In this document: piece after piece, positions 15,921-61,918 of the stretch
How the letters are laid out: each line of letters begins with the position of its first letter
Numbering within the stretch: the first letter of the stretch is position 1
Assembly: GCA_039028635.1 (NCBI GenBank)
Contig: JBCCHV010000027.1
Span: forward strand, 1 to 64,000
Length of the DNA stretch: 64,000 nucleotides
Direction: 5' to 3'
Source: Acidobacteriota bacterium
Lineage (GTDB): Bacteria; Acidobacteriota; Thermoanaerobaculia; Multivoradales; JBCCEF01
Notes under the pieces: generated by a model
Database searches by the model: none
What the model was told of the DNA's origin: nothing
What the model saw: the letters and a program-made list of their open reading frames with translations, nothing else
Translations under genes and position numbers: made by a program

Positions 15921-15926
15921 ATGCTA
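15921..15926 (-). promoter_or_regulatory. -10-like TAGCAT overlapping a repeat edge
   Basis: TAGCAT (minus strand) ends 6 bases before the ATG of the HEAT-cyclophilin gene and shares 3 bases with the first 14-mer of repeat copy A. No Shine-Dalgarno is present, so a leaderless transcript is possible. Confidence 0.35.
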
Positions 15927-16060
15927 GCAGGCTGCTGTCTCAGGAGGGCTAAAGGCGCCCCCCTCGCGTACGCGGCCCGGCCCGCACGCACAGGTCGTGC
16001 GGGCTCACCCCTCAGCCGGGCACCCCCGACCTCGGCGGCTCTCGCCGCCGCCTCGCCCGG
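15924..16060 (+). repeat. Modular hairpin repeat, copy A
   Basis: Fills about 40% of the 348-base gap between the divergent HEAT-cyclophilin and ccmA genes; I see no gene in the rest. It begins CTAGCAGGCTGCTG (15924-15937). Hairpin 1 is a G-run/C-run around CTAAAGGCG (15942-15963). Hairpin 2 is GCCCGCACG/CGTGCGGGC with loop cacaggt (15980-16004). Hairpin 3 is CGGCGGC-tctc-GCCGCCG (16033-16050), flanked by CACCCCCGACCT and CCTCGCCC. Linkers match copy B while the stems differ but remain paired. Unlike the other copies it does not follow a stop codon. Confidence 0.75.
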
Positions 16061-16249
16061 TGGGCTCGGACCGCGCATTCTTGGCGTTCGATTCTGCGCC
16101 GCTACCTCGGCCCAGCAGGGCCTGAGCCCTCTCCAGCCCGCGAATCGCGAGCTCGGGGTCCCCTCCAAGCGCGCTGTCCTGGAAAGCCCGCCCCATGAGG
16201 TGAGTCGCGCCCCCTGCGTCAAGGCGGTCAGGAGATCGCGGCTTGCTTG

Positions 16250-40176: not shown

Positions 40177-40209
40177 TTTCCAGAGGGGCTAGGGGCGCCC
40201 CCCTGGAAA
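40177..40209 (-). repeat. Modular hairpin repeat, short copy D
   Basis: A 33-base near-palindrome TTTCCAG-a-GGGG...CCCCCCTGGAAA downstream of the secF terminator and just upstream of the rel -10. On the minus strand it reads C-C-T-G-T-G then TTTTCCAGGGGGGCG, close to the GCCTGCTG...TTTCAGGGGGG of copy B, but hairpins 2 and 3 are missing. Confidence 0.6.
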
Positions 40210-53275: not shown

Positions 53276-53340
53276 ACGAACGCGCCCGCCGAACGGAGGG
53301 CGCGCCAGCCGGGGGCTCGTCTCGGGACCTCCTCGAATTG
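53276..53340 (-). repeat. Degenerate tandem copy of the hairpin repeat (C')
   Basis: About 52 bases (53276-53327) repeat 53400-53451 with an offset of about 124 bases, including GCGCCC-g-CC/GG-a-GGGCGC and AGCC-ggg-GGCT followed by CGTCTCGGG. The first two hairpins of copy C are not recognisable here, so this is a decayed duplication. The remaining part of the 411-base gap (53101-53275) shows no gene. Confidence 0.6.
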
Positions 53341-53399: not shown

Positions 53400-53511
53400 C
53401 GCACGCGCCCTCCGAAAAGGAGGGCGCGCGAGCCGGAGGCTCGTCTCGGGGGTGAGCCGCAAGAATCGCATTTCTTGCGGCGAGGGGGGTTGGAACAACC
53501 CCCCTGAAAGA
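53400..53511 (-). repeat. Modular hairpin repeat, copy C
   Basis: Directly follows the TAG of the barrel-fusion gene. In transcript order: TTTCAGGGGGG with the hairpin GGGGGGTTG/CAACCCCCC (53504-53484); GCCGCAAGAA/TTCTTGCGGC (53481-53456); CACCCCCGA; CGAGCC/GGCTCG (53443-53429); GCGCCCTCC/GGAGGGCGC (53427-53405). The linkers TTTCAGGGGGG and ACCCCCGA match copies A and B. The first hairpin may also terminate transcription. Confidence 0.75.
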
Positions 53512-56412
53512 CTAGAACCGCGTCCCGATCCAGAAGTCCGTCTTGAAGCCTTCCTCGGCGAGGTCGAAGCGGTACTGGCGAGCGAAGTCCCAGTTGATGG
53601 TCAGACCGGCGAAGCGCGCCGAGATTCCATAACCGTAGGACGCCCGGGCATCGGCGAACTGATCGTTGTCCGAATCCCAGATATCGAAATCTTCAAACTC
53701 GTCGAACCAGGCGCCACCGACATCCAGGAAGATGATCCCGCGGATGCCCTGGAAGCCGAGGATCGGCGTCGCCAGCACATCGATTAGCGGGAATCGGTAC
53801 TCGATATTGGTGACGAAGGCGTGGGTCCCGACCAGCGAACGGAAGTCGAAGCCGCGCAGGTTGTCCAAGCCGCCGAGGGCGAAGAGTCCCGGCTGGTTGC
53901 CATCGCTGACGCCGAAGAAGCCGCGCAGGGCGAAACCGCTGCGCCGGGTCACCGGCAGGTACTGACGGACCTCGAGCTCCGTCGAGGTGAACAGCGAGCC
54001 CGATTCCTCCGTGTCGAGGGCGTAGCTGAAGTCGAGGCGCCAGCGGCGGCCACTCACCGGACCGGTTTCGTTGAAGGCCGACGAGTCGCCGGCGAAGGCG
54101 AGGTTGAAGATCGGAAAATCGTCTTCGACTCGCACGATGCCGGTGCCCGGACCGAGCTCCGGATCGAACACCTGCACGACCTGGTCGAACTCGCGGAAGA
54201 CATAGCCGGCGCCAACCTCGAATCGGGTCTGGAAGGTGAACGGATACACCACCGAGAACACCGCACCGCGCTGCTCGTAGGCGGAATCGCCCCGTTCGAC
54301 GCCGCGGAAATCATCGAAGGTGCGGTAGAACAGGCGATCATCGAACAGGTTGACCTGCCACTGCCAGCGGTTCTTCAGGTTGATGTAGGTGATGTCGAAG
54401 TTCGACAGGCTCTCGACCGAGCTCAGCACCGCGATCACCCGCTGGTCGCCGAGGTAGTCGGTGAAGCTGAGCACGATCTGGCCGAGCAGGGTCTGATCAT
54501 CGTCGATGCCGACCACCGCGTCGGCGCCTTCGAGAAACAGCTTGAAGCCGCCGTAATCCTCGATGTTCGAATCATCGATCGGCACCTGGATGTCGGGCTC
54601 GAAGACCGGCAGAGCCTCCGGATCCGACGCCTCGGAGGCGATCTGCACCGTCTCCGTTTCGACCACCGGCTCCGGCACCTCGATGGCGTAGAGGTCGAAG
54701 CGACCCTTCCACATGGCGGTGTAGACCAAGCGCTCGGTGCCGTCCGCCTGCGGCAACACCGTCGGCATGAAGCAGCCGGTCACGGCGTTGGTGTACTGGT
54801 GCAGCTCGCCGCTCTCGAGATCGAGGCCGAAGATGTTCTCGACGCCGGTGCGATCGGAGGTGAAATACAGCCGCCGACCGGTGGGCGAGAAGATCGGATC
54901 GGTCTCGCTCCAATCGCCGAAGGTGAGCTGGAAGCGCTTGCTCGGATCGTCGAGGGGAATGCGGAAAAGCTTGGCGTGGCCCTCGCCGATCACCGTCGTC
55001 ATCACCAGGCTCTTGCCGTCCGGCGAGAAGGTGGGTGCCGCATCGAAGAAGGAATCCTGGGTGAAGTTCTCGACTTCGCCGGTCTCGGTGTCGACGATGT
55101 AGATGTCGAAGGCGCCATCCTTGATCGCCGAGAAGGCCAGGCGGCGGCCGTCCGGATGCCAGGCCGGCGCGAGATGCTGGTCGAGGTGGTCGAGGTCGAG
55201 GCGCTTGCGCACCTTGCCGTTGAGGGCATCGACCAGCAGCAGGCTGCGATTGCGCTCGCGCTTGGCGAAGACGGCGATGGTGTTGCCGTCCGGCGAGAAG
55301 GCGAGATCGCGACCGAACTTGCGTCCCAGGGTGAGCTCCTGCGCCACCAGATACTGGTAGTCGCTGCTGAAGCCCTTGGTGAGGTTGCGCAGGTTGCGCC
55401 GCTTTTTGGTGTCGAACAGCGTGATGTCGACGTCGCCGCGCTCCGAGGTGAAGGCCGCCAGGAGATCGCCGGAAGGCGAGGCCGCCGGCGAGATGATCTG
55501 GCTGGGCAGACCGCGGGTCACCCGGAAGGGACGGCCGAAGTCCCGTGGCTCACCGGTCTCGAGCAGCTCCGGCAGGTACTTGCGCCGCAGCCAGCGGCGG
55601 AAATCGGCATCGAAGTCCTCCGGCTCGACCCCGAAGGCGCGCTCGACGGCGCGACCGACGGAAGAGCCGATCGAGCTCCGCAGCTCGAAGACGAAGTCCT
55701 GGAAGCCGTCCTTACCGTAGGTCTCCTCGACGTAATCGAGCACCGCATGGCCGATGCGATAGGCGAAGAAGCCACCGCCGTTCCAGCTCGTCATCGGCGG
55801 AATGATGTCGTTGACCGCCGCGTCGCGCAGGAACATCTTGTCGCGGGTGGTCTCGTCCTCCGCCATGTAGCTCGCCATGCCCTCGATCAGCCAGAGCGGC
55901 GGCCGCGCCGCGATCGCCTTGCCGAAGCGGCCCTGGAAGAGGATGTGGTACTGGAAGATGTGGGTCAGCTCGTGGAGGATGAGGTTCATCAGCTCATCGT
56001 CCGGCAGGTCGATCGGCAGCACCATCCGGAAGCGCACCGGTGATGCGAAGGCCCCCACCCCCTCGGGGATGAAGTTGAGAATGATGTTGTTCTGCTCGAA
56101 GGCCGAGTGGGTGGCATAGAAGATCAGGGGCGTCGGCTCCTGAATCTGGTAATCGAACTCCCGCGACAGCCGGTCATAGGCGCTTTCGGCGAAGGACACC
56201 ACCTTCTCGAGGGAGGCCTCTTCCTCGGTGTAGTAGTACACGTCGAAGTGGGTCGAGTGGTAGATCTTCCAGTCGAAATCGCGGTACTGGACCTTGTTCT
56301 TGCCGAAGCCGCGCCCACCGTATTGAGGACCGAGCTGAGCCACCAGCGGCAACGCCAGAGAGAGGGCGACGAGCCCCGTGGCGGCGAGGAAAAGAGTCTT
56401 CGAAAGCTTCAA
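53512..56412 (-). CDS. Gluzincin peptidase / beta-propeller / outer-membrane barrel fusion
   Basis: 966 residues. A signal peptide (about 1-26) leads to a peptidase MA-like domain (about 50-290) with H147-E-L-T-H151 and the third ligand E177 in I-E-G-M-A-S. A PD40/WD40-like propeller follows (about 310-620; repeats such as F-S-P-D-G-N-T-I-A and W-H-P-D-G-R-R-L-A-F). The C-terminus (about 680-966) is a surface-antigen/BamA-like beta-barrel (N-L-R-G-F-D-F-R-S-L) ending in Phe. No POTRA domains are evident. The TTG start has AAGGAG 6 bases upstream; the frame further upstream overlaps the previous gene and lacks a signal peptide. Confidence 0.85.
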   Translation of the reverse strand: MKLSKTLFLAATGLVALSLALPLVAQLGPQYGGRGFGKNKVQYRDFDWKIYHSTHFDVYYYTEEEASLEKVVSFAESAYDRLSREFDYQIQEPTPLIFYATHSAFEQNNIILNFIPEGVGAFASPVRFRMVLPIDLPDDELMNLILHELTHIFQYHILFQGRFGKAIAARPPLWLIEGMASYMAEDETTRDKMFLRDAAVNDIIPPMTSWNGGGFFAYRIGHAVLDYVEETYGKDGFQDFVFELRSSIGSSVGRAVERAFGVEPEDFDADFRRWLRRKYLPELLETGEPRDFGRPFRVTRGLPSQIISPAASPSGDLLAAFTSERGDVDITLFDTKKRRNLRNLTKGFSSDYQYLVAQELTLGRKFGRDLAFSPDGNTIAVFAKRERNRSLLLVDALNGKVRKRLDLDHLDQHLAPAWHPDGRRLAFSAIKDGAFDIYIVDTETGEVENFTQDSFFDAAPTFSPDGKSLVMTTVIGEGHAKLFRIPLDDPSKRFQLTFGDWSETDPIFSPTGRRLYFTSDRTGVENIFGLDLESGELHQYTNAVTGCFMPTVLPQADGTERLVYTAMWKGRFDLYAIEVPEPVVETETVQIASEASDPEALPVFEPDIQVPIDDSNIEDYGGFKLFLEGADAVVGIDDDQTLLGQIVLSFTDYLGDQRVIAVLSSVESLSNFDITYINLKNRWQWQVNLFDDRLFYRTFDDFRGVERGDSAYEQRGAVFSVVYPFTFQTRFEVGAGYVFREFDQVVQVFDPELGPGTGIVRVEDDFPIFNLAFAGDSSAFNETGPVSGRRWRLDFSYALDTEESGSLFTSTELEVRQYLPVTRRSGFALRGFFGVSDGNQPGLFALGGLDNLRGFDFRSLVGTHAFVTNIEYRFPLIDVLATPILGFQGIRGIIFLDVGGAWFDEFEDFDIWDSDNDQFADARASYGYGISARFAGLTINWDFARQYRFDLAEEGFKTDFWIGTRF

Positions 56413-57588: not shown

Positions 57589-57783
57589 CGCATTCGCCCT
57601 CGCTGAGATCACCGAACACCTCGCTCGGCGGCGAATGACACGCCGCGAACCAAGAGCTCGTCGGCCAAAACAAGCACCAGAATCAACCTCGCTAGTATAT
57701 ACGAGCACCAACTGGGGCGATGGATGCATGGAGCCGGCCCCGAGCGAGCGATTCGGGGGTGCCAACGGCGTCTTCCCGGGCGC

Positions 57784-58911
57784 ATGGCGACGACTCGAGA
57801 ATCTTCTCCCCGGGCGCGAGACCGCGACCTTCTGACCGCCCTCCACGGCTGTCCGGCGCTGCCGATGGCGGTGACCTGCCGCCTCGCCGCCACCCTGCCA
57901 CGATGGCGACGCGAGCCCCTCTCCCAAGCCGCACCACTGGCCCACGAGATCGGCCTCCCGGCCCGCTACCTCCGCCGCGCCCTGGAGCTGAGGAGCACCG
58001 CCGGCGAGGCCGCCCGACAACAGCGACGACAGGCGCGAGCGACGGCCACCGAGCTCGTCACCCTCGCCGACGAGGACTTTCCCGAAATCCTCCGGCGGCT
58101 ACCCCAGCCACCGCCGGTGCTCTATCGGCGCGGCGCGGCGGCGGGCCAGGACTGGCAGGAGCAGCGAGCGGTTGCCGTGATCGGCTCGCGGCGGGCCAGC
58201 ACCTATGGCCTCGAAGCGGCGGCGTTCTTCGCCGGCTGCCTCGCCGAAGCCGGCATCACCATCGTCTCCGGATTTGCCCGCGGTATCGATCAACGGGCCC
58301 ATCGCGCCTGCCTCGAAGCCGGCGGGACGACCGTTGCCGTCCTCGGCTGCGGCCTCGACGTCGACTATCCCCGCGGCGCCGGCGAGCTGGCCCGGCGCAT
58401 CGCCTCCCAGGGAGCGCTGATCAGCGAGTTCGCCCCCGGCACCGAGCCCCGTCCCTGGCACTTCCCGGTGCGCAATCGCCTCATCGCCGGCCTTTGTCGA
58501 GCCGTTCTGGTGGTGGAAGCGACGGCCCGCTCCGGATCCCTGATCACGGTGCGCCACGCGCTCGACCTCGATCGCGACGTCTTCGTCGTTCCGGGCAGCA
58601 TCTTCCATCGCGGCAGCGCAGGTCCCTACGGCCTGTTGCGCGACGGTGCCTACCCGGCGATCCATCCGCAGGATGTGCTCGATTCTCTGCCGGATGCCCT
58701 GGCGGCGAGCCCCAGCCCACCGCCACCCGAGCTGCCAGGATTCGCCGGTCGCCTCTTCGGGCTGCTGCCGCGCGGTGACGCCATGAACGCCGACGAGTTG
58801 GCGACGGCGACCGGCAAGAGCATCGACGAAACCCTCACGGCGCTCCTCGAGCTCGAGCTCGAGGGCTGGATCCGGCGCCTCCCCGGAGGCGCCTTCGGAC
58901 GCCGTCGCTAG
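57784..58911 (+). CDS. dprA: DNA processing protein DprA
   Basis: Loads RecA on incoming single-stranded DNA in natural transformation. 375 residues from the ATG at 57784; an ATG at 57724 (weak GGGG 6 bases upstream) is an equally possible start. The Rossmann-like core has G-S-R-R-A-S-x-Y-G, S-G-F-A-R-G-I-D, G-C-G-L-D-V-D-Y-P-R, R-N-R-L-I-A-G-L and A-R-S-G-S-L-I-T. A C-terminal winged-helix-like domain is at about 315-370. The TAG stop is part of repeat copy B. Confidence 0.93.
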   Translation: MATTRESSPRARDRDLLTALHGCPALPMAVTCRLAATLPRWRREPLSQAAPLAHEIGLPARYLRRALELRSTAGEAARQQRRQARATATELVTLADEDFPEILRRLPQPPPVLYRRGAAAGQDWQEQRAVAVIGSRRASTYGLEAAAFFAGCLAEAGITIVSGFARGIDQRAHRACLEAGGTTVAVLGCGLDVDYPRGAGELARRIASQGALISEFAPGTEPRPWHFPVRNRLIAGLCRAVLVVEATARSGSLITVRHALDLDRDVFVVPGSIFHRGSAGPYGLLRDGAYPAIHPQDVLDSLPDALAASPSPPPPELPGFAGRLFGLLPRGDAMNADELATATGKSIDETLTALLELELEGWIRRLPGGAFGRRR

Positions 58912-59114
58912 CAGGCTGCTGAAAAAGCCGCGTGGCGGCTTCTTCAGCGCCTGCTGTTTGTTTCAGGGGGGCTAAAGGCGCCCCCCTCAGGCGCGCGCAC
59001 ATGTCGCGCGCCTTTACCCCCGACCTCGGCGCCTAAGGCGCCGCCTCGCCCTATGGGCTCGGGGTCCCTCGCGGACCAGGAGTCCTCGAACCTGAGTTTT
59101 TTCAGAGGCCTGCT
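58908..59114 (+). repeat. Modular hairpin repeat, copy B (full length)
   Basis: Starts with CTAGCAGGCTGCTG, whose TAG is the dprA stop. It then has a terminator-like hairpin (58918-58948), GCCTGCTG, TTTCAGGGGGG/CCCCCC (58961-58986), AGGCGCGCG/CGCGCGCCT with loop cacatgt (58989-59013), ACCCCCGACCT, CGGCGCC-taa-GGCGCCG (59027-59043) and CCTCGCCC...TGGGCTCGG. The sequence TTTTTTCAGAGGCCTGCT (59097-59114) is an imperfect inverted copy of the start, giving the unit terminal inverted repeats. Confidence 0.8.
58918..58948 (+). terminator. Terminator-like hairpin after dprA
   Basis: GCTGAAAAAGCCGC pairs with GCGGCTTCTTCAGC (one mismatch) around gtg, starting 6 bases after the stop. A/T-rich tracts within the arms could supply a T-run in either direction. 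Confidence 0.6.
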
Positions 59115-59291
59115 CCCGGGGCCGAGAGGACCCGGCGGCGGCTCAGCCGCCGCGACGGGAGAGGAGGCCCAAGAACCGCGCCTCCTGGGCCGGAGCGGGA
59201 CCCGCAGTCAGGGGCGCGCAGTCCCTCTCGAAACAAACGGCTAGCAGCGCTGGAAAAGTCGCGAAGCGCGACTTTTCCAGCAGCCTGCTAG
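59115..59291 (-). repeat. Modular hairpin repeat, copy B' (inverted)
   Basis: Read from topA outward: CTAGCAGGCTGCTG (59291-59278) contains the topA stop. Then come a 15-bp terminator-like hairpin, a second CTAG, TTTGTTTC as in copy B, weaker hairpins, and CGGCGGC-tga-GCCGCCG matching the third stem position of copy B. The right side merges with the inverted end of copy B. Copies B and B' thus meet tail to tail in the 376-base dprA-topA gap, which holds no gene. Confidence 0.7.
59249..59281 (-). terminator. Terminator-like hairpin after topA
   Basis: A perfect 15-bp stem, GCTGGAAAAGTCGCG/CGCGACTTTTCCAGC with a 3-base loop, located just beyond the topA stop inside repeat B'. Confidence 0.65.
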
Positions 59292-61918
59292 CGCCGACGG
59301 CGGCGGGGGCGCTTGGGGGCGTTGCGGCGCGCTTCGAGGAGCTGCAGGGCCTGTTCCACGGTCACCGCCTGGGGATCCGAACCCTTGGGCAGAGAGGCGT
59401 TGGTCTTGCCGTCCGTGACATAGGGACCGTAGCGACCATCGAGCACCTGCATCGGCCCCTCGGCGCCTTCCGCCTCGCCGAGCTCCTTGAGCACCGTGCG
59501 GGAGGCCCGGCCGCGCTTGGCCTTGGGCTTGGCGAGAATCTCGAGGGCGGCCTCGAAGGTCAGGTCGCAGGCCTCTTCCCAGGTGGCGAGATTGCGGTAG
59601 TCCTTCTCGTGCTTGACGAAGGGGCCGTAGCGGCCGAGGCCGGTGGAGATCATCTCGCCACTCTCCGGATGGGCTCCGAGCTCGCGCGGCAGAAGGATGA
59701 GCCGCCCGGCGATCTCCGGCGTCACGTCGTCGATCTTCATGCCTTTTGGCACCGACACCCGCCGCGGCTTGACCTTGCTCTCCTTCTCTTCCTCGGTCTG
59801 GTCGACCTCGAGGTAGGCGCCGAAGCGACCGTTCTGCAGGTACACGTCGCGACCGGTCCCGGGATCGCGGGTGATCGGCTCGCCCTTCTCGCCGCGACCG
59901 CGCAGCATTTCCACCGCCGCTTCGACGGTCAAGTCCGCCGGCGGCAGGTCCTCCGGCAAACTCGCCATGTTGCCGGAGCCGCCTTCGCCGCGGCGCAGGT
60001 AGGCGCCGTAACGACCGATCTTGACGACGATGGGATCGTCGCTCTCCGGATCACGGCCGAGCTCGATGGCGGGATAGACCACCTCTCCCTCCTCGACCCG
60101 CCTCTGCAGTCCCGGCTTCTCTTCGCCGCCGAGGAAGAACCCTCCGACCAGATTGTTCCACTCTCGGCGGCCGGCGGCGACTTCGTCGAGGGCACCTTCC
60201 ATGTGGGCCGTGAACTCGGTGTCGACGAGATCCTCGAACTGCTGCTCGAGGAGCTGAGTGACGCAGAAGGCGGTGAAGGTCGGGATCAGCTCGTTGCCCT
60301 TCTTGAACACGTAGCCGCGGTCCTGCACCGTGCTGATGATCGACGCGTAGGTCGAGGGCCGGCCGATCCCGGCCTCCTCGAGCTGCTTGACCAGGCTCGC
60401 CTCGGTGAAGCGGAAAGGCGCCTTGGTGGCGTGCTCCTCGGCATCGACGGCCAGGGGCTCGACCGCTTGACCGACCGTCAGCGGCGGCAGCAGGGTCTCC
60501 TGATCACCGAGCTCCGCGTCGGGATCGTCGGAGCCTTCGACGTAGGCGCGCAGAAACCCCGGGAAGACGATCTGGCGCCCCGAAGCGGCGAAGGTCAGGG
60601 TCTTGTCCTCCACTTCGACCTCGACTTCGAGCTTGGTGCGCTCGAACTTCGCCGGCAGCATCTGGCAGGCGATGGTGCGCTTCCAGATCAGCTCGTAGAG
60701 GCGAAACTGGTCGTCGTTGAGATAAGGCTTCAGGTCCTTCGGACGACGGCTGAGATCCGTCGGCCGAATCGCCTCGTGGGCTTCCTGAGCACCCTTCGAT
60801 TTGGTCTTGTAGCGATTCGGCTTGGCGGGCAGGTACTCGGCCCCATAGGCCTTTTCGATCACCGTTCGAGCCTGGTCGATGGCGCGCCCGGCGAGGCTCA
60901 GGCTGTCCGTTCGCATGTAGGTGATCAGTCCGATCCTTTCACCACCGAGATCGATGCCCTCGTAGAGCTGCTGCGCCACGCTCATCGTGCGGCGTGCCGT
61001 GAAGCGCAACTTGCGGTTGCCTTCCTGCTGCAGGGTCGAGGTGATGAAGGGCGGCGCCGGCCGCTGCTGGCCGGGCTTGAGGTCGAGCTTCGAGACCTTC
61101 CAGGGACGAGCCGCCAGCGCTCCTTGGCGCAACCCGTCGGCAGCCGGACCATCGAGCAGCAAGCGCTGCGTGTCGCGCAGCTTGCCGGTGGCCGAATCGA
61201 AGCTCTTGCCGTCCGCCAGGCGCTGGCCGGCGACCCGCACCAGGCGTCCCTTGAAGCGCCCTCCTTCGGCCTCGAGGTGAGCTTTGAGGTCCCAATAGGT
61301 GGAGCTGCGGAAGGCGATCCGCTCACGCTCGCGCTCGACCAGCAGGCGCACCGCGACGCTCTGCACCCGACCGGCCGACAGGCCCGGGGCCACCCGCTTC
61401 CAGAGCAACGGCGACAGCGAGTAGCCATAGAGGCGATCGAGCACCCGGCGCGCCTCCTGGGCCCGCACCAGGTTCTCGTTGACCTTGCGCGGCGACTCGA
61501 GGGCCGAGCGAATGGCCTCCGGCGTCACCTCGTGAAAGACGATCCGCTGGACGTCGACCTTGCCCTTGGGGTCGAGCAGCTCGAGAACGTGCCAGCTGAT
61601 GCTCTCGCCCTCGCGATCTTCATCGGTGGCGAGCAACAGGCGATCGGCACCCCGCAGAGCGTCCTTGAGACGCTTGACGTGCTTTTTCTTGTCCGCCGGC
61701 ACCACGTAGAGCGGCTCGAAGCCCTCGTCGACATTGACCCCCAACCGTGCCCAGCTCTGCTTGCGGACTCCGGCCGGAATTTCCTTGGCATTCTGCGGCA
61801 GATCGCGAACATGCCCGTAGCTCGCCTCGACCTGGTAGTCACCTCCCAGGAATCGGCTGATGGTGTTGGCCTTGGCGGGGGACTCGACGATGACGAGGTG
61901 CTTGGTGGGTTCTGCCAT
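59288..61918 (-). CDS. topA: DNA topoisomerase I
   Basis: Relaxes negative supercoils (type IA). 876 residues. The Toprim domain begins I-V-E-S-P-A-K-A-N-T and has the acidic triad in A-T-D-E-D-R-E-G-E (about 100). The catalytic Tyr is Y334 in T-Y-M-R-T-D-S. The C-terminus (about 585-876) has repeated Toprim_C-type units (G-R-Y-G-A-Y-L, G-R-F-G-A-Y-L, G-R-Y-G-P-F-V-K, G-R-Y-G-P-Y-V-T), not Cys4 zinc fingers. The basic tail ends K-R-P-R-R-R-R-R. The gene is inverted relative to dprA and trmFO. Confidence 0.96.
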   Translation of the reverse strand: MAEPTKHLVIVESPAKANTISRFLGGDYQVEASYGHVRDLPQNAKEIPAGVRKQSWARLGVNVDEGFEPLYVVPADKKKHVKRLKDALRGADRLLLATDEDREGESISWHVLELLDPKGKVDVQRIVFHEVTPEAIRSALESPRKVNENLVRAQEARRVLDRLYGYSLSPLLWKRVAPGLSAGRVQSVAVRLLVERERERIAFRSSTYWDLKAHLEAEGGRFKGRLVRVAGQRLADGKSFDSATGKLRDTQRLLLDGPAADGLRQGALAARPWKVSKLDLKPGQQRPAPPFITSTLQQEGNRKLRFTARRTMSVAQQLYEGIDLGGERIGLITYMRTDSLSLAGRAIDQARTVIEKAYGAEYLPAKPNRYKTKSKGAQEAHEAIRPTDLSRRPKDLKPYLNDDQFRLYELIWKRTIACQMLPAKFERTKLEVEVEVEDKTLTFAASGRQIVFPGFLRAYVEGSDDPDAELGDQETLLPPLTVGQAVEPLAVDAEEHATKAPFRFTEASLVKQLEEAGIGRPSTYASIISTVQDRGYVFKKGNELIPTFTAFCVTQLLEQQFEDLVDTEFTAHMEGALDEVAAGRREWNNLVGGFFLGGEEKPGLQRRVEEGEVVYPAIELGRDPESDDPIVVKIGRYGAYLRRGEGGSGNMASLPEDLPPADLTVEAAVEMLRGRGEKGEPITRDPGTGRDVYLQNGRFGAYLEVDQTEEEKESKVKPRRVSVPKGMKIDDVTPEIAGRLILLPRELGAHPESGEMISTGLGRYGPFVKHEKDYRNLATWEEACDLTFEAALEILAKPKAKRGRASRTVLKELGEAEGAEGPMQVLDGRYGPYVTDGKTNASLPKGSDPQAVTVEQALQLLEARRNAPKRPRRRRR

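Follow-up and report, generated by a model that had tools for sequence, protein, structure and literature searches.

The segment at positions 58908-59291 of the window (the 64,000-nucleotide stretch of DNA analyzed here) is a single composite repeat between the convergent genes dprA and topA. It belongs to a family of short, hairpin-rich DNA repeats, without an earlier name, whose copies lie at the ends of well over a hundred genes of this genome. The family resembles a repeat of transposon origin that inserts at stop codons and leaves the gene intact, rather than a new functional RNA. We consider it probable (roughly 0.6) that its members are non-autonomous mobile DNA repeats (MITE/BIME-like) in which IS5-type ends, CTAGCAGGYTGCTGAAAAA, surround an older multi-hairpin core. 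Directly observed are the copy number, the structure, the termini, the anchoring on stop codons and, elsewhere in the phylum, an IS5-family gene flanked by these termini.

A composite repeat joins the 3' ends of dprA and topA

The composite consists of two elements, B on the plus strand (subfamily T1) and B' on the minus strand (subfamily T2), fused tail to tail such that both outer boundaries are left ends. Its features and neighboring genes are as follows.

57724-58911, plus strand: dprA (DNA processing protein A, by Pfam; start uncertain)
58908-59291, no single strand: whole T1(+)/T2(-) composite, with CTAG at each end
58908-58957, plus strand: left-end hairpin of T1, with the IS5-type terminal repeat CTAGCAGGCTGCTGAAAAAG (fold z = -6.6)
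58961-59062, plus strand: core of T1, with P1 (G6/C6), P2 (variable), linker TTTACCCCCGACCTC, P3 and P4 (covariance model, 116.7 bits)
59098-59116, minus strand: degenerate right end TTTTTTCAGAGGCCTGCT, common to T1 and T2, which joins them
59116-59233, minus strand: core of T2 (B'), sense to topA, with variant linkers GAGAGG / CCTCTCCCG (covariance model, 33 bits)
59241-59291, minus strand: left-end hairpin of T2, whose TAG is the topA stop codon (fold z = -7.7)
59288-61918, minus strand: topA (DNA topoisomerase I, by Pfam)

According to gene calls made with our own codon model, the dprA stop codon is the TAG at 58909-58911, inside the first CTAG of the composite, and the minus-strand stop codon of topA is held by the last four bases (CTAG). 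The preliminary description had listed B and B' as two sites; rather than separate tandem sites, they are one composite, tail to tail, with two left ends, and the same T1/T2 composite recurs at two other loci of the genome (C4:70236-70634 and C60:11515-11928). The fold z-score of the whole composite is -10.5, and those of the cores are -4.3 for B, -8.0 for site C (below) and only -1.2 for B'. The dprA-topA junction bears an element in both this genome and the congener G001, where it is a single element, sense to topA, with stems that differ from those of the window copy.

Three other sites in the window belong to the family.

15924-16069, plus strand: site A, a truncated left end directly adjoined by a core that has an insertion in a linker (model match 15938-16069, 34-50 bits)
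40177-40209, plus strand: site D, the P1 hairpin alone (model match from 40178, 24 bits, E=0.005, weak)
53405-53509, minus strand: site C, a core without terminal repeats (covariance model, 62 bits)

By our own gene calls, site A is not at the 3' end of any gene. Site C lies 2 nt past the stop of a minus-strand gene at 53512, with a degenerate partial unit nearby at 53281-53326, and site D lies downstream of secF, which is on the minus strand. The five sites initially proposed are all matched by the covariance model (D weakly), and for A and B the sequence contains the linkers and the differing but complementary stems as they were described. B' represents a subfamily with altered linkers, GAGAGG / CCTCTCCCG in place of GGGGGG / CACCCCCG.

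The family is abundant and turns over between relatives

Three subfamilies with common ends can be distinguished: T1 (B), T2 (B') and T3 (188 bp, e.g., C4:19508). A long imperfect hairpin forms the left end, and the hairpin AGCAGGTTGC...GCAACCTGC the right end; between them, the core runs in the order TTTCAGGGGGGCT..GCGCCCCCCTC, P2, TCACCCCCGTCCTC, P3, GCCTC, P4, and TCGG. The core also occurs without the ends, single or in tandem (e.g., window site C and C2:41134-41714). At L034, C2:58451-58530, and C27:70092-70385, the 5' and 3' core linkers carry variable insertions, sometimes in tandem, that are mutual reverse complements (AGGGGCGCCCGGCC / GGCCGGGCGCCCCT), which suggests template switching between hairpin arms.

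A covariance model built on 24 copies, taken from this genome, its congener (G001) and G016, gave 60 core matches in 1.95 Mb of this genome, and 37 end-bounded elements were found in 1.96 Mb. Scaled to 6.28 Mb, these numbers correspond to about 190 cores and about 120 end-bounded elements. BLAST, with scoring limited to 40 places, also returned many further copies, and the end 17-mer AGCAGGCTGCTGAAAAA, with up to 2 mismatches, matched 295 times versus 2 for a reversed-pattern control. Many of these matches lie near contig ends, and contigs of the draft assembly often break at these repeats. A scan for the layout in 1.96 Mb gave 67 raw (overlapping) matches versus 0 in shuffled sequence. Identity among copies is 78-95% within the genome and about 70-79% to the congener (longer matches).

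An order-wide model search of 72 genomes found at least 56 matches in this genome and at least 56 in G001, together with 12 in G016 and 26 in G023, both from one other family; two more genomes (G040 and G017) had one match each, and the rest none. A deeper search of G016 at a looser cut-off gave 27 matches. For six congener genes with an element whose orthologues lay in the sampled part of this genome, one orthologue has an element and five do not, i.e., there is turnover plus some shared sites. All five element-free orthologues in this genome end in TGA. The suggestion of a fold-preserving, REP-like mobile element is supported by the high copy number, the genome-specific subfamilies, the presence/absence between species and the covarying hairpins.

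Element ends often coincide with stop codons

Using the same codon model for gene calls, we found that 36 of 76 ends fall exactly on a stop codon and that one or both ends coincide with a stop at 23 of 38 sites. The tetranucleotide CTAG is depleted 6.7-fold in the genome (542 occurrences versus 3613 expected from base composition), and other CTAG sites lie at stops in about 23% of cases, a background that includes CTAG inside elements. CTAG is found on both sides of 21 of the 37 end-bounded elements; in several others, CTAG at one end is paired with CTAA or a different tetramer at the opposite end.

In the copies of G001 and G016/G023, the core mostly starts 0-60 nt past the sense stop. The core-to-sense-stop distance has two tight modes, at about 0-10 and 39-60 nt, whereas distances to the convergent stop are widely scattered; the termini-free core lies 0-10 nt past sense stops. 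Among codirectional copies in all genomes, 25 are sense and 10 antisense (p = 0.017). Two of these observations count against the MITE model: the termini-free core, sense-oriented past stops in two families of the order, is unexplained by IS5 ends alone, and the codirectional sense bias is beyond the needs of pure insertion.

The termini are shared with IS5-family elements

Of 297 genomes searched in the phylum, 19 contain the 18-mer TAGCAGGYTGCTGAAAAA, and its control matches none. At locus L195, the CTAGCAGGYTGCTGAAAAA termini flank an IS5-family transposase gene (NF033581, 279.6 bits, cut-off 140), and L175 holds a 1342-bp IS of similar sequence with the same ends, as judged by eye from sequence only. 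Four genomes (G303, G240, G245, and G328) have short elements that are delimited by these ends but have unrelated interiors, some with REP-type hairpins. The ends seem, from these sequences, to capture different interiors. Examples of short elements with the same ends and unrelated interiors are L206 (G328) and L196-L198 (G240). In G303, L192:1141-2958 has the same CTAG ends around a gene with two IS200-type Y1 domains and REP-like hairpins (CCACCAACGCAGTTGGTGG), and L193, L194, and L208 are short elements with those CTAG ends and the L192 hairpins.

The elements have the traits of IS5-type MITEs, being small, without coding capacity, multicopy and present or absent between relatives. No DUF772 / IS5-type transposase was found in this draft genome, G001, G016, or G023, the L195 transposase as query gave no match in this draft genome, and a scan of viral contigs for the transposase gave none. 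The single DDE_Tnp_1 gene in this genome (C54:33030) has no exact end 17-mer nearby, and two long end pairs, of 1.05 and 3.1 kb, occur in 1.96 Mb. No precise empty site was seen in comparison with the congener, which is too diverged at about 71% DNA identity.

A literature search for the end sequence gave no match, and searches on stop-codon/CTAG MITEs and Rhodobacter repeats returned only precedents of the MITEPsy1 and GTAG-REP types (PMC3189936, PMC3733652). MITEPsy1 of Pseudomonas syringae is likewise short and gene-free, with inverted terminal repeats with CTGAAAAAG and a likely IS5-type parent; its ends contain CTGAAAAAGCC, and its insertion sites are reported to be CTAG or YTAA, with duplication of 4 nt (PMC3189936). 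Copies of IS5 in E. coli have also been described with CTAA or CTAG flanks (PMC11677980). MITEPsy1 differs in being 100 nt long and of low copy, compared with about 120 end-bounded copies here, and the present family has a covarying multi-hairpin core, which also occurs free of ends, and no parent IS was found in this genome.

Our preferred model can be summarized in terms of insertion into CTAG. In a full element, CTAGCAGGYTGCTGAAAAA ends that can each fold into a hairpin surround four GC-rich hairpins parted by conserved pyrimidine linkers. An IS5-type transposase, now absent or unassembled, would have inserted the elements at CTAG, leaving one CTAG at either boundary. This tetranucleotide is rare in the genome and often contains the TAG stop of a gene. 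Since the element starts with CTAG, insertion would retain the stop and supply a new 3' flank, and at convergent genes both stops would be retained. Composites such as B/B' may form when copies fuse and then spread as units. The hairpins would be upheld as palindromes of the DNA, because they are recognized, because the DNA folds or because template switching corrects them, and not through RNA pairing. Here, we infer the identity of the transposase, the TSD length (CTAG or TA) and the means of stem upkeep. Because the rare CTAG often holds a stop codon, insertion would be nearly silent while gene 3' ends are remade; a transposon-derived repeat could thus reach high copy in a compact GC-rich genome via a rare, stop-holding tetranucleotide.

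Stem pairing shows no sign of RNA-level selection

The covariation expected by the preliminary description for an alignment of many copies exceeds controls, and the further copies it predicted genome-wide were found by BLAST, the end pattern and the covariance model alike. In the 24-sequence alignment, 95.7% of paired cells are complementary, versus 82.6% in shuffled sequence and about 50% with partners slid; two-sided changes occur in 75 cells versus 24 in the control, and one-sided changes in about 6. In 61 further copies, with the alignment fitted to the structure, two-sided changes are found at 28 of 28 pairs.

Selection on RNA is expected to tolerate G-U and purge A-C, whereas a DNA palindrome treats both alike. 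We counted 7 G-U versus 11 A-C cells in A1 and 24 versus 33 in A2, a comparison that is conservative because a structure-fitted alignment should favor G-U. Since G-U is not above A-C, RNA-level selection was not detected, with small counts that leave room for weak selection, and pairing seems to be kept at the DNA level. In addition, Rfam gave no match in the window, and at 14 related or look-alike loci none of its families matched these structures, and a scan of 58700-59500 contained 0 intrinsic terminators (GC stem then U tract). A terminator within the left hairpin was considered separately, given A-run/T-run flanks at 39 of 101 ends, and was rejected as unsupported by the terminator scan at the window site.

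These results bear on the most likely alternative, a structured 3'-UTR RNA (mRNA stabilizer, terminator or attenuator) that is multicopy and conserved for RNA function, as the preliminary description had in part proposed. The tight core placement past sense stops set against the scattered convergent-stop distances, the 25:10 sense bias, the strong covariation with conserved linkers across two families and the shared dprA-topA site would all fit such an RNA, and an RNA role is possible given the sense orientation just past stop codons. The G-U/A-C comparison and the Rfam and terminator results argue against it, as do the absence of the element from most orthologous genes and the near-identical copies inside one genome, which dispersal predicts. 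We regard a structured 3'-UTR RNA as unlikely. More generally, a multicopy intergenic repeat can covary strongly without being a functional RNA, and setting G-U against A-C cells offers a simple test for RNA-level selection.

A similar layout recurs in Rhodobacterales

Scanning 84,980 species with the P1 hairpin only, we obtained 26 stretches, mostly from Rhodobacterales plus two Sphingomonadales MAG contigs. In nearly all of them, the hairpin is followed by TC, a stem whose sequence varies and T(T)CACCCC; the flanks of L214, L217, L219, and L232 contain four more sites of this kind, and shuffled sequence contains none. A multi-copy arrangement of G6/C6 hairpin, TC, second varying hairpin, and T(T)CACCCCC..GGATATTT is seen at L213, L214, L217-L222, L224-L230, and L232-L238. 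These Rhodobacterales 3'-end hairpin pairs, for which no name was found, share with the present family the G-run/C-run hairpin, TC, the variable hairpin and TTCACCCC. They differ in lacking P3/P4 and CTAG ends and are followed by sequence of the GG-ATATTT type.

It is conceivable, albeit improbable, that the G4-6/C4-6 hairpin, TC, variable hairpin and TCACCCC found just past stops, at high copy in Acidobacteriota and again in Rhodobacterales, represent a general bacterial 3'-end element. Its G-tract would pair with either C-tract, and an unrecognized function would have permitted its capture and spread by IS5-type ends. With this recurrence, common descent, convergence or a general 3'-end device becomes a testable question. 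In a Deltaproteobacteria MAG, L215:1167-1290 has a similar layout with TAACCCCC replacing TCACCCCC, followed by two more hairpins.

Template switching and RAYT mobilization as alternatives

Stem covariation could also be a by-product of quasi-palindrome template switching in replication, acting on junk MITEs without selection, for which G-U approximately equal to A-C, the excess of two-sided over one-sided changes and the reverse-complementary linker insertions speak; we consider it very improbable, as non-palindromic linkers (CTC, TCACCCC) are kept between families and placement relative to sense stops is conserved.

Equally doubtful is mobilization as a REP/BIME by RAYT (Y1 HUH) transposases, with GGGG/CCCC as guide/cleavage tetranucleotides. 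The hairpins with tetranucleotide-like linkers, the high copy number, the 3'-end location and the stop overlap recall GTAG-REPs. These are high-copy palindromes of the intergenic regions that separate convergent or codirectional genes, where they lie close to gene 3' ends and often supply the TAG stop (PMC3733652). RAYT-like Y1_Tnp genes do exist (2 here and 4 in the congener), but no association with them was found: all 6 Y1 genes lack a core or end copy in the surrounding 1.5 kb or so. Moreover, the present elements have six hairpins in about 210 nt and IS5-like outer ends, and the unpaired GTAG/GGAG tag at the hairpin foot is absent; their ends are CTAG, largely paired, and match IS5 termini. 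CGTC-REPs are similar in being palindromic repeats without a linked transposase (PMC3733652), and many copies here have CGTC in their P2-P3 linker; this assignment was rejected because CGTC is not conserved (other copies have CATC, CGAC, or CGAG) and does not lie at an end. The flanks of the RAYT-like Y1 genes at L156 and L158 (this genome, G000) and at L157 and L159-L161 (G001) appear to hold short repeats of their own, unrelated to the core.
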